From positions 1 through 36,432 of the IMG/VR virus record IMGVR_UViG_3300043100_000046: DNA of 36,432 nucleotides; one strand, given 5' to 3'. The notes below the pieces were generated by a model that saw nothing but the letters and a program-made list of their open reading frames with translations, was not told the DNA's origin and did no database searches. This document shows, one piece after another, positions 3,395-25,580 of this stretch. Every line of letters starts with the position of its first letter. Positions within the stretch are counted from its first letter, which is position 1. The DNA comes from a virus. Both the position numbers and the translations under genes were made by a program.

Positions 3395-3616
3395 ATGAAG
3401 CGCACCCCAAACCATCGCCTGCACTTCGAAGTCTCGGAAACCCTGGATGCCGAACTCCGGGCCATCGCCGAGGATCAGGGGGTTAGCTTAGCTACCGTGC
3501 TGCGCGCCGGGATCGCGCTGGTCAAGATTTACCACCGCACGAAGCAGACCAAACGCCATCTCGGGATTGTTTCCGACCCGGCGGTTCTCGACACCGAGAT
3601 CATCGGGCTTTTTTAA
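3395..3616 (+). CDS. Small ribbon-helix-helix-like protein
   Basis: A 73-aa protein; ATG 3395 is preferred over an upstream TTG at 3389. The segment LHFEVSETLDAELRAIAEDQGVS has the pattern of a ribbon-helix-helix DNA-binding fold: a short amphipathic strand, then two helices separated by a Gly-Val-Ser turn. Proteins of this type act as small repressors. It lies between terminase and portal, so it may regulate the packaging operon, but the assignment rests on pattern only. Confidence 0.6.
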   Translation: MKRTPNHRLHFEVSETLDAELRAIAEDQGVSLATVLRAGIALVKIYHRTKQTKRHLGIVSDPAVLDTEIIGLF

Positions 3617-3631
3617 CCCTCGGAGGACGAC

Positions 3632-4108
3632 ATGGAAGTGCCCGAAATCATCACCAAGCGGCTTCTGCCCGAAATCATCACCAAGCGGCTTGCCGAGTTG
3701 AATCGCTACATCAGCGAGTTGGAAGAGCAGCTTGGACCGTTTCTCGAAGAGCGCGAAGCGCTACAGATCGCAATTGATGCGATCCGCAGTAAGGGTGCCC
3801 CGGCAGGCACGCAAGAAGACTTCGAGCGAGTCGCCGCTACACACCAGGATGTGCTTGCGGCAAAGGCTTGGGCGTCTGCTGAGCCGATCCCGCATCTGCG
3901 AAATACAGACAAGGGCGAACCTCCAGAGGGGTTGCTGCCAACGATTTCTGAGAGGATTCTGGGGGCGCTCACCGAGCCGATGACCGCGCTGCAAATCGCG
4001 CACGTGCTCGATGTCCCGGTCGAAAGGGTTTCGCCGCGACTGACGACATTGTATCAGCGCGGTCGACTGACCCATGAAGGGAATTTGTGGGGTCCGACTG
4101 CTGGCTGA
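3632..4108 (+). CDS. Coiled-coil plus winged-helix-like protein
   Basis: A 158-aa protein starting at ATG 3632 with a GGAGG ribosome site. Residues 1-20 hold a tandem duplicated EIITKRL peptide caused by a 27-bp direct repeat in the DNA. Residues 20-55 form a heptad-like coiled coil (ELNRYISELEEQLGPF). The C-terminal third (ISERILGALTEPMTALQIAHVLDVPVERV, then an RLTTLYQRGRL wing) looks like a winged-helix DNA-binding domain. A DNA-binding role near the packaging genes is plausible, but it is not a recognised small terminase. Confidence 0.65.
   Translation: MEVPEIITKRLLPEIITKRLAELNRYISELEEQLGPFLEEREALQIAIDAIRSKGAPAGTQEDFERVAATHQDVLAAKAWASAEPIPHLRNTDKGEPPEGLLPTISERILGALTEPMTALQIAHVLDVPVERVSPRLTTLYQRGRLTHEGNLWGPTAG
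3639..3692 (+). repeat. 27-bp in-frame tandem duplication
   Basis: The 26 nt beginning at 3639 recur exactly at 3666, a unit step of 27 bp, so nine codons (containing EIITKRL) are duplicated near the start of the coiled-coil protein. The reading frame is kept. Confidence 0.9.
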
Positions 4109-21204: not shown

Positions 21205-21411
21205 ATGATCGGCTTGTTGATCCAAATTCTTATACTATGTCTTGTTTTAGGATTAATTTTGTATATTTTTGGGGCGGTGCCAATCTTGGCACCGTTCCGC
21301 TGGCTCGCGCAGATCATCTGCGTCGTCATCGTGGTGATTTTCCTGATCGAGATCCTGCTCGGCATCTCGGGTGGCGGGGTGAGCTTCCCCGCTTTCCATT
21401 CGATCAGATGA
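21205..21411 (+). CDS. Small two-span membrane protein
   Basis: A 68-aa product from ATG 21205 with a GGAGA site. Two hydrophobic helices (residues about 3-23 and 34-56) sit around a short PFRW loop; few charges. Holins and small membrane factors share this layout, but nothing specific shows lysis function. It ends head-on with the PurA gene, overlapping it by 8 nt. Confidence 0.65.
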   Translation: MIGLLIQILILCLVLGLILYIFGAVPILAPFRWLAQIICVVIVVIFLIEILLGISGGGVSFPAFHSIR

Positions 21412-22522
21412 CCGTTTCAGTTTGATCGCGGCGTGGGCCAAACCCGCGATAGCCGATCGCTAACCCGACATCGGGCATGTCGATCGTAACCTGATCGCAG
21501 CAGGTCAGGGCGAGATGCGCGGACGATACTGAGCGACCGCCAATCGCTAGGTCGTGGCTTACCCTTTCTTTGAGGCCACGCGGATCGAGATGACCAAAGC
21601 GCAAGGTGCCTTGGTAGGGATGACTTTGATTGGTTGCATCTATCGGGATCGGGTTCGGGACAAATTCGTTTTTGATCGGCCCAGCGCCGTGGCGCGTCAA
21701 ATAGGTGCGCGAGACGTAAACAACCTCAAGTTCGAGGGCGAGTGCGCGGGCGATCGGCACGACATTTTTGAGCCCCGTGCTCGATCGGGTCACATGCGGG
21801 AACTCGCCGTATTCCTGGTCTAGCAGCAACCCCTGTGCGCCCTCGAAGATGATCTGCGAACTCTGGATGTATTCCAGTCCCGCTGAGGGTACAGCATGAT
21901 CGAACTTCCGCACGGCGGCGATGAACGCGTCAATCCAGTTGTTGCCGAGATGCGTGTCGTCTCCAACCAGTGGCGGGACGCCAAGTTGGTGCAGTCGCGC
22001 GGGCATCCAGTTGTCGCGGATGTTGATCAGTTTCTGCTTCAATAATTTGTCAGGAGCTGACAGGTCGTCCTTTAACAGGCGAAACGCCGGATAGTTGTTG
22101 CGCTCGATGGTCTCGCCGAATCCGATCCCGCAACTGCCGTGTCGTGCGGCAGCGCGGTGGTCTTCGACTATTTGGTTGATCAGCATGTCGTAAGGTGTCG
22201 TCACGTAGCAGCGCGGGTCAGCCGCGACTGGGGGCGCTAGCCGAACCTCCAGAAACTCGGCGTATTCATGCCAAAACAAGATCGGATTAAGCACAAAGTG
22301 CTTGGCGAGGTAGGTCTTGGCCCCAGCGAGGGTGCCGGAGCCAAGATGGTGGAACACACGCCGCCGATCATCAGGCGTGACGACGGTGTGCCCAGCTTGG
22401 GCTCCGCCATTAAAGCGCACGACAGCGCAATCGGCCGAGAGGCCAGATGCGAGGTAATCAACCATCCGCCCTTTGGCCTCGTCGCCGTAGTTGGCCCCGA
22501 TAACGGCTGTCGCGCGCCTCAT
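21404..22522 (-). CDS. Adenylosuccinate synthetase (PurA family)
   Basis: A 372-aa protein that would join IMP and aspartate using GTP. The P-loop region GANYGDEAKG (Asp14, Lys17) matches GDEGKG of PurA, with Asp14 at the catalytic place; AGHT (His45) is the catalytic-histidine motif; GIGFGETIER and RTYLTRHGAGPIKNE also fit. It is about 60 aa shorter than bacterial PurA, notably around the substrate loop (GTLRFGHLD instead of GTTTGRxRRxGWxD). The phage family PurZ, used for aminoadenine DNA, is reported to replace the Asp with Ser/Gly; here Asp is kept, so ordinary AMP synthesis is likelier. ATG 22522 has a GGAGG site 9 nt upstream; it shares an operon with the VWA gene. Confidence 0.8.
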   Translation of the reverse strand: MRRATAVIGANYGDEAKGRMVDYLASGLSADCAVVRFNGGAQAGHTVVTPDDRRRVFHHLGSGTLAGAKTYLAKHFVLNPILFWHEYAEFLEVRLAPPVAADPRCYVTTPYDMLINQIVEDHRAAARHGSCGIGFGETIERNNYPAFRLLKDDLSAPDKLLKQKLINIRDNWMPARLHQLGVPPLVGDDTHLGNNWIDAFIAAVRKFDHAVPSAGLEYIQSSQIIFEGAQGLLLDQEYGEFPHVTRSSTGLKNVVPIARALALELEVVYVSRTYLTRHGAGPIKNEFVPNPIPIDATNQSHPYQGTLRFGHLDPRGLKERVSHDLAIGGRSVSSAHLALTCCDQVTIDMPDVGLAIGYRGFGPRRDQTETVI

Positions 22523-23953: not shown

Positions 23954-23980
23954 GCGGAATACATGGGCCTGAGCTGTGGA

Positions 23981-24529
23981 TCAGCGGTGCTGCTTTGCAA
24001 GCAGATCGTCATGGGTTTCGACTACCCACAGGTCCACCAGTCGATGACTGCGGTGCACTTTGGCATGGCATGTTGGGCAGAGGACAACCAGATTTTCCGC
24101 AGCGTTGTTAGTTCTGTCTTTATCGCGATGATGGACTTCGAGAACGTCATCGTATGCGCAATATCCGCATCCGAAGCACTTCCTGCCATGCGTCTCAAAC
24201 GCCAATTTGCGATAGTCGATGTAATCTCCATTCCCATAATGGGCTGGTTGGATTTCTTTCATTCCGCCAATGCGCTGTGCTCTGTCCTTGCACTCGCGCG
24301 AACAGAATCGCAATCCGCTCTTCGATTTACGGAGGTGAGCTTTGTACCTTTTGAAGGTGTAGCCGCAGAAAGCGCAGGTTACTTCAACTTGAGCCCATCC
24401 GCGCGTTTGGCGCTGGTATTCCCAACCGCACATGCGGCTACAAAATATGCCTTGATTGCGGGCCAAATATTTGGTTTCAGCTAGATAGGGTTTGCCACAA
24501 GAGGCGCAGAGGCGCTCAATTTTCATCAT
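23981..24529 (-). CDS. HNH endonuclease (zinc-finger HNH)
   Basis: A 182-aa protein read from ATG 24529 (tandem MM start at 24529/24526; no strong ribosome site). It has a CxxC finger (CASCGKPYL), further Cys pairs (FCSRMC, CAFCG, FCSREC), and an HNH nuclease: KCFGCGY, LEVHHRDKDRTNNAAENLVV, LCPTCHAKVH. Such genes are usual selfish or homing nucleases in phage. It points away from the PD-(D/E)XK gene at 24636 and the tRNA-Val half gene between them. Confidence 0.8.
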   Translation of the reverse strand: MMKIERLCASCGKPYLAETKYLARNQGIFCSRMCGWEYQRQTRGWAQVEVTCAFCGYTFKRYKAHLRKSKSGLRFCSRECKDRAQRIGGMKEIQPAHYGNGDYIDYRKLAFETHGRKCFGCGYCAYDDVLEVHHRDKDRTNNAAENLVVLCPTCHAKVHRSHRLVDLWVVETHDDLLAKQHR

Positions 24530-24574
24530 CGAACGATACGTGATTTGCGCAGGACAATCAAGGTCCACCAACAC

Positions 24575-24612
24575 GCGGCTATAGCTCAACGGCAGAGCAT
24601 CAGGTTGACTCC
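24575..24612 (+). pseudogene. 5' half of tRNA-Val(GAC), 3' half absent
   Basis: The 38 nt read as acceptor GCGGCTA, TA, D-arm GCTC/GAGC with loop AACGGCA, then anticodon stem TCAGG and loop TTGACTC holding GAC. The sequence then departs from any tRNA and runs into the endonuclease gene 23 nt later. No matching T-arm plus TAGCCGC acceptor was found within 1 kb. ACTCC here pairs with GGAGT just upstream of the ATG, as the P1 helix of a group I intron would. Confidence 0.5.
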
Positions 24613-24635
24613 GCATAGGTATCAAATATGATGGA

Positions 24636-25316
24636 GTGATGAAAAATACCACGCACATCGGAGATTTAGCCGTTGCTATGGTAACCGGCGCTCTCCTTGC
24701 TTCTGGGAAACAGGTCCTCAAGCCATTGAGTGACGGTCTCAGATACGATTTGGCGGTCGACGATGGTTCTGAAATTTTGCGGGTACAATGCAAAAGCGCC
24801 GTTTTCCGACATGGTGCCGTTGTCTTTCATGCGAACTCATCTACCGGCAGAAAACGGGTCGGATACCGAGGTGAGGCTGATTTTTTCGGCGTATATTGTG
24901 CAGAAATACATAGATGTTATCTGATACCAGTGGCGGCGGTCGGCTTAACTTCGGTGCGGCTTCGGGTTGAAAGTCCCAAAAATAACCAAAAGACAGGATT
25001 GCGCGATGCCGCCGCATACGAAATCCCGATTCGCGGGCCTAGCACCACTCCGGTCTATACTATCCACGCGTGCCCAGACTGCGGTGCTCAGGTTACCTCT
25101 AAAGGCCGCAGGTGCGTCAACTGCCGGCGGAGTCGCCATCAGTCATTCAAAATAGAGTGGCCAGACCATCACGAACTTCTCCTCCGATTGGAGGGAATGT
25201 CCTTGCGGGCGCTGGCGCGCGAACTTGGCGTGACCGATTCGGCAATAAAAGGCCATCTTGCTACCATGGGTGTAACGTACAAGAAGAGGACGGCTTCCCA
25301 AGCCCCGCTATCATAA
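24636..25316 (+). CDS. PD-(D/E)XK homing-type endonuclease
   Basis: A 226-aa protein (start at one of two adjacent ATGs). The N-terminus GDLAVAMVTGALLASGKQVL then RYDLAVDD and EILRVQCKSA follow the PD-(D/E)XK signature (Asp38, Gln51, Lys53) of group I intron-associated endonucleases such as I-Ssp6803I. A zinc ribbon CPDCGAQ ... CVNC lies near residues 147-164, and the C-terminal MSLRALARELGVTDSAIKG is a helix-turn-helix. That family is known to nest in tRNA introns, which fits the tRNA-Val half gene directly upstream. Confidence 0.75.
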   Translation: MMKNTTHIGDLAVAMVTGALLASGKQVLKPLSDGLRYDLAVDDGSEILRVQCKSAVFRHGAVVFHANSSTGRKRVGYRGEADFFGVYCAEIHRCYLIPVAAVGLTSVRLRVESPKNNQKTGLRDAAAYEIPIRGPSTTPVYTIHACPDCGAQVTSKGRRCVNCRRSRHQSFKIEWPDHHELLLRLEGMSLRALARELGVTDSAIKGHLATMGVTYKKRTASQAPLS

Positions 25317-25502
25317 AAATGGGCGAGATGATGGGTTTGCTCCAATACGGGACCACTGGTTTAATTCGCGCCGTTAAGCGCGTGACCCGTAACGCTGTTA
25401 GCGACAAGACGGTGAGTGTCGCGGGCTCCATTTCCCGAACAACCCCGTCAGCCGACGGATGGTCGTGGAAACCTGTGGAGCACCATCGTGGTCGGCACCC
25501 TT

Positions 25503-25580
25503 TGCGCGGGATCGACCGGCGTAGCCCCCGTAGCGAGTATGGGCCTCGCTAAGGTCTCCCCGGCCGGTCGATCCCGCGCA
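25503..25580. other. Long closed-stem structured element (A)
   Basis: An 18-bp perfect stem (25503-25520 with 25563-25580) encloses 42 nt with an inner TAGCGAG/CTCGCTA hairpin. It occupies the 287-bp gap after the endonuclease gene that otherwise has no gene, and ends 23 nt before the next start. Probably an RNA structure or regulatory cruciform. Confidence 0.6.

Follow-up and report, generated by a model that had tools for sequence, protein, structure and literature searches.

Free-standing SegB-type endonucleases are already known from phage tRNA clusters, and PD-(D/E)XK endonucleases from group I introns in tRNA genes (PMC1995217). The latter arrangement is represented by I-Ssp6803I of Synechocystis (PF11645; structure 2OST), which is encoded by a 655-nt self-splicing group I intron in tRNA-fMet (PMC1995217). 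For the former, T4 SegB offers an experimental precedent, as a free-standing endonuclease in a tRNA cluster that promotes inheritance of the region (PMC2988022, PMC13096335). As for phage introns, a 2014 review found every one then known in a protein gene, despite the many tRNA genes that phages carry (PMC3984707). Among the open-access papers searched, none was found to describe PD-(D/E)XK genes placed directly in phage tRNAs, or inserts whose ends pair with an anticodon.

Here we describe such a gene in a viral metagenomic contig, IMG/VR record IMGVR_UViG_3300043100_000046, analyzed over positions 1 to 36,432 (36,432 nt; hereafter the window). Its product matches PF11645 (PDDEXK_5) over aa 4–130 (E 2e-28), and the closest solved structure is 2OST (E 6.5e-7). 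Residues D37, Q50 and K52 are invariant among nine phage proteins and align with the catalytic D and QxK of 2OST. These matches bear out the I-Ssp6803I-like endonuclease proposed in the initial annotation, and by them the protein is a predicted PD-(D/E)XK homing endonuclease of the I-Ssp6803I/PF11645 family. With I-Ssp6803I it shares the nuclease family, the catalytic D...QxK and a site in the anticodon region of a tRNA. It differs from that enzyme in being intronless, whereas I-Ssp6803I lies inside its self-splicing intron, and also in having an extra C-terminal tail and in residing in a phage tRNA whose 3′ half is lost. The tail comprises the C-terminal 90 residues and is zinc-ribbon-like and HTH-like, with weak Pfam matches. 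Like T4 SegB, the window gene is free-standing in a phage tRNA array; unlike it, SegB is a GIY-YIG enzyme of an unrelated family that sits between tRNA genes and splits none of them. Searches for close homologues of the window protein returned one distant relative in viral contigs and none in genome contigs, and because the best identity to any relative is 34–36%, the insertion is not traceable through intermediates.

Upstream of the endonuclease ORF lies the 5′ half of a tRNA, AGAGCATCAGGTTGACTCC, which had no exact match among viral contigs. From 5′ to 3′, it consists of the acceptor strand GCGGCTA, then TA, a closed D-arm with the stem GCTC/GAGC around AACGGCA, a single A, positions 27–31 (TCAGG) and the loop TTGAC, which ends in the Val-like anticodon GAC (24607–24609). 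The half scores just 20.8 bits in cmscan, under the cut-off, because the 3′ part of the tRNA is missing, and ARAGORN called no tRNA at 24575–24609. The break falls at the boundary between nt 36 and nt 37, directly after the anticodon. Counted from nt 37 up to the right flank, the insert measures 729 nt, made up of a leader, a 678-nt ORF and a tail (Table 1), and the start codon follows nt 36 after 29 nt rather than the 23 nt first reported.

Table 1. Coordinates of the broken tRNA, its insert and the adjacent genes in the window.
Feature	Position	Strand	Evidence
tRNA 5′ half, nt 1–36	24575..24609	+	cmscan 20.8 bits; intact tRNA-Gly(GCC) at G001 site
Insert leader, 29 nt	24610..24638	+	Forms hairpin with 24608–24609
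PD-(D/E)XK homing endonuclease ORF (predicted), 225 aa	24639..25316	+	PF11645, 2OST, invariant residues
Insert tail, 22 nt, in the place expected for the 3′ tRNA half	25317..25338	+	G001 comparison
GCTCCA, final six bases of the old tRNA; common right flank begins	25339..25344	+	G001 alignment
HNH endonuclease gene, separate insertion beside the broken tRNA	23981..24529	-	PF01844; absent there in G001 and G002
tRNA-Ala(TGC)-like gene, unannotated, short D-arm	23965..24039	+	Read from sequence

That the 3′ exon is missing, as the initial annotation had noted, stands for the whole window: three TAGCCGC/T sites occur in it, with a T-arm at none, and no acceptor end of this kind is accompanied by a T-arm anywhere. 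Two candidates for a surviving 3′ half were rejected. A 7-nt match (GAGATGA) between the tail and the 3′ half of the corresponding tRNA in the relative G001 is at chance level (381 of 5000 and 473 of 10000 shuffles), and a full tRNA at 24575–24674 (20.8 bits) would have to use a TAGCCGT inside the ORF, in a stretch that codes for GDLAVA in the nuclease domain and comes without a T-arm. Because the 3′ half is gone except for its last six bases, the window tRNA is dead and non-functional.

Two contigs of about 120 kb each, G001 and G002, are close relatives in which the genes around the site are about 98% (96–99%) identical to those of the window. The flanks align with G001 up to 24597 and again from 25339. 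At this site G001 carries an intact tRNA-Gly(GCC) (L025:929–1004) and lacks the endonuclease; 34 nt of the window (24564–24597) match the G001 tRNA site (94%, E 3e-8), and the first 19 nt of the 5′ half are identical to the tRNA-Gly. The match indicates that the 5′ half is more than a chance resemblance, and the intact G001 tRNA disposes of the objection, foreseen in the initial annotation, that relatives might lack this half altogether. The “tRNA-Val” of that annotation thus holds as a tRNA half; its valine identity does not carry over in the same way, as it depends on the anticodon with the stem partner lost, and the intact G001 gene is tRNA-Gly(GCC). G002 has neither tRNA nor endonuclease at the site, and the CCA of its tRNA-Cys runs directly into the right flank, which is consistent with a deletion between CCAATACG repeats. 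The endonuclease protein is encoded in neither genome. The window ORF thus lies outside any intron or intein and has an empty allele in both G001 and G002. The anticodon arm of the window half is unlike that of G001, the two sequences diverging past about nt 20. The tRNA presently carried by G001 may thus not be the invaded one: the target was possibly a different isoacceptor, or donor sequence possibly entered along with the gene.

The neighboring slot of the array differs as well. The unrelated HNH gene described as lying just outside the broken tRNA does face the opposite strand; rather than lying outside, however, it and a tRNA-Ala(TGC)-like gene occupy the slot that holds tRNA-Cys in G001 and G002. 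The tRNA-Ala-like gene, called by neither ARAGORN nor Rfam, overlaps the last part of the HNH gene on the opposite strand. A second copy of the tRNA 3′ end, AGGTCCACCA, stands across the HNH gene at 24561–24570, an arrangement that insertion of the HNH element at the 3′ end of the tRNA-Ala-like gene could have left. Compared with G001 and G002, the array slots of the window between 24000 and 32000 differ in isoacceptor (Cys versus Ala; Gly versus Val half versus none), and the comparison points to rapid tRNA turnover in the array slots of near-identical phages. Elsewhere in the window, a 76-nt hairpin at 25504–25579 has a long stem of 17 perfect base pairs and an inner stem of 7 bp; in G002 a C-G pair of the long stem has become T-A by compensatory change, and the hairpin is possibly a structured RNA. 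A phage adenylosuccinate synthetase, possibly PurZ-like, is encoded at 21404–22522 on the minus strand (PF00709, E 1.5e-40).

By tblastn and collection scans, we gathered about 60 phage or viral loci of the endonuclease family; an alignment of the full set of phage proteins proved too heterogeneous to scan a collection with. tRNAs are present in 40 of 43 representative loci, and a distance of at most 70 nt separates the endonuclease gene from a tRNA in 27 of 43 cases, compared to 33 of 114 for the remaining ORFs of these loci (Fisher p 2e-4). The genes occur in three arrangements. In the first, the gene adjoins a full tRNA and in many cases overlaps the end of it, as in Sf-FR1, My1, phi-pp2, Navo, KoPa-4 and Talia1610; comparison of phi-pp2 with KVP40 shows that the gene arrived with a divergent tRNA-Met. 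In the second, seen in HSTV-4 relative to HRTV-21, the gene comes after a full tRNA (tRNA-Asn in HSTV-4) whose anticodon arm is altered, and behind the gene remains the old 3′ half. In the third, the gene lies inside the tRNA. Enterococcus phage EFP01 (EFP01_109) carries a 463-nt insert, including a 423-nt ORF, exactly between T36 and A37 of tRNA-Asn, a gene that is intact in the sister phage 21C1 and that many further Enterococcus phages have annotated at this place. The arrangement recurs in at least 14 divergent contigs (L114–L122, L125, L126, L128, L129 and L073/L081) and is likewise seen in L005. Matches from the intron mode of ARAGORN often fused halves of two intact tRNAs and were discarded.

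Several other features were seen in or near these loci. The endonuclease ORFs of L119/L065 and L114 contain in-frame TAG codons, which these phages may read as an amino acid. ROOL RNAs lie near endonuclease-bearing tRNA arrays in L005 (2936–3522), L122 (3413–4002) and L128 (12–620), as does a partial OLE match in L064 (3141–3290), and L114, a 160-kb viral contig, has a tmRNA match of 80 bits (3534–3870) near its split tRNA. In L123 (about 1950–2460), a relative of the split-tRNA inserts is flanked by just an anticodon-stem-like inverted repeat (TCTGCTTTGTC/GACAAAGCAGA), the rest of the tRNA being absent.

The EFP01-type inserts (EFP01_109; L114–L129, L073/L081) resemble that of the window in protein family, in the site after nt 36 and in being nearly all ORF. 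They differ from it in keeping both tRNA halves and in having ends that pair with the anticodon, neither of which the window copy has. L077 is like the window in keeping the 5′ half and the gene and not the 3′ half; L078–L080 share the gene arrangement of L077, and no split tRNA was found in them. We regard the window as most likely a truncated case of the third arrangement. The initial annotation had listed a new mode of insertion among its options, and this is the one upheld, as the gene stands directly at nt 36/37 without an intron, with EFP01 and many viral contigs alike.

We conclude that an intronless homing endonuclease of the I-Ssp6803I family probably invaded a tRNA of the array at position 36/37. 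During co-infection, the enzyme would cleave, in the anticodon arm, the tRNA gene still intact in a phage without the endonuclease, and repair from the carrier would copy the endonuclease gene, together with some flanking sequence, into the cut. Insertion would destroy the target in the carrier. We infer the nuclease activity and the homing of the window protein, and the predicted cutting of the empty allele in its anticodon region is deduced from the insertion site and the relatives. Ordinary recombination of the tRNA array could instead have brought in the gene and merely truncated the tRNA, with neither homing nor a cut in the anticodon arm. tRNA content does differ strongly among the three near-identical genomes, G002 lacks the tRNA, and the micro-repeats CTCC and CCAATACG occur at the junctions. 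However, the break lies exactly at 36/37, where relatives are inserted in at least eight tRNA species, and the gene belongs to a homing family with conserved catalytic residues, and we consider recombination of this sort unlikely.

The inserts that leave both tRNA halves in place have a further property. Both halves are kept in 16 loci, and joining nt 36 to nt 37 yields a canonical tRNA in all 16; the tRNAs split are Asn GTT, Ser GCT, Ile GAT, Thr TGT, Pro TGG, Lys TTT, Arg ACG, Glu TTC and Pro AGG. Over the 15 of these loci that entered the pairing statistic, the final trinucleotide of each insert is paired to its own tRNA's anticodon, at 44 of 45 positions in all, while ends swapped between loci pair at 41–60% per position. 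The helix extends between the two insert ends for about 10 bp (90% of cells paired versus 56% when shuffled), with two-sided changes at 10 of 10 pairs and a covariation score of 0.868, compared to 0.230 for shuffled ends and at most 0.249 when slid by 1–3 columns; the loci fall into about seven anticodon lineages with shared ancestry, and the permutation p-values ignore this kinship. G-U pairs make up 12 of the 23 non-Watson-Crick cells, where 1 in 6 would be expected (p 1e-4, kinship ignored), an excess that favors an RNA helix over a DNA repeat. Past the helix, the 5′ side has CAAAYT and the 3′ side CATTG in most members. The putative splice points, between nt 36 and the first insert base and between the last insert base and nt 37, stand at a 3-bp stagger within one continuous helix. 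Throughout the GTT/GCT/GAT lineage, AGC is retained as the insert end, and the pairing may thus owe something to target choice and not to adaptation alone. From these comparisons, the anticodon-pairing helix is a well-supported prediction.

Protein-spliced tRNA introns of archaea and eukaryotes also sit in the anticodon loop, with intron bases paired to the anticodon region. Their canonical site is one nucleotide 3′ of the anticodon (PMC4090602). The EFP01-type inserts share the anticodon-loop site and the pairing with the anticodon region, but differ in that no bulge-helix-bulge was seen, in their 36/37 site, in being filled by an ORF and in their carriers, which are phages mostly of bacteria. 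The ends of the split-tRNA inserts hint at an undescribed, ribozyme-free kind of tRNA intron. We put forward tentatively, as a possibility that we hold less likely than its opposite, that phages carry a class of such introns. In each, an endonuclease ORF would sit at 36/37 of one of many tRNAs, the final three bases of the insert being complementary to the anticodon of the interrupted tRNA and the two ends forming a covarying helix on the anticodon stem, so that cleavage of the precursor at a 3-nt stagger, and its rejoining, would be possible. On this view, the window would hold a decayed, 3′-truncated copy of the family.

If so, the window insert itself could be the 3′-truncated remnant of a non-group-I tRNA intron. 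Introns of this class would be 36/37 inserts filled by an ORF, their ends paired both to the anticodon and to each other, and would be excised by proteins. The pre-tRNA would be cut by a host or phage RNase, possibly the encoded nuclease, and then sealed by an RNA ligase. The canonical tRNAs, covarying helix and G-U excess of the 16 other loci speak for this, as does the finding that no intact tRNA with the same anticodon occurs in the available DNA around any of them. Against it, the window shares the 36/37 position and has neither a 3′ half nor a matching insert end; its tail AAATGGGCGAGATGATGGGTTT is unpaired with GACTCC, the sole partner of which is the local hairpin before the ATG. In the tree, the window protein stands beside L066 and L110, outside the main split-tRNA clade, a placement with weak support. 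The split-tRNA loci are related to one another, there is no known splicing enzyme, and an association with RNA ligases is not general: of 19 records, many of them fragments, two have a T4 Rnl1-type ligase and two have RtcB. We judge this remnant reading quite improbable for the window.

A group I intron carrying the endonuclease in the tRNA, intact or decayed, was the lead of the initial annotation, and despite the precedent of I-Ssp6803I and of cellular relatives whose ribozyme core adjoins the ORF, we reject it as very improbable: the core (P3–P8) and the 3′ exon are both absent, cmscan of the window returned no Intron_gpI even at E ≤ 5, and the non-ORF insert between the homologous flanks is 51 nt (29 + 22), leaving no room for a core because 678 of the 729 insert nucleotides are ORF. 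The same search found a group I core (RF00028) beside 13 of 20 cellular (bacterial) I-Ssp6803I relatives, and in 0 of the 35 phage-family loci scanned, window included. The pairing of ACTCC (24608–24612) with GGAGT (24633–24637), once likened to a P1 helix, persists as a pairing (z -2.06; 8 of 200 shuffles as stable); with no group I core, it is not a P1. It overlaps the Shine-Dalgarno sequence of the ORF, and we read it as a Shine-Dalgarno hairpin instead. In the intron endonucleases of T4 such hairpins serve late translation (PMC2988022), and by analogy the window hairpin would delay translation of the endonuclease.

Together, these loci mean that an endonuclease family known from a tRNA group I intron occurs throughout phage tRNA arrays without an intron, directly in the anticodon loop. 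For the window, where an intronless endonuclease has probably invaded, this amounts to a dead tRNA and a selfish gene. The anticodon-pairing ends of its relatives raise the question of whether there are protein-spliced tRNA introns in bacteriophages, and a further question is whether endonucleases of this kind preceded the mobile group I introns of tRNA genes.
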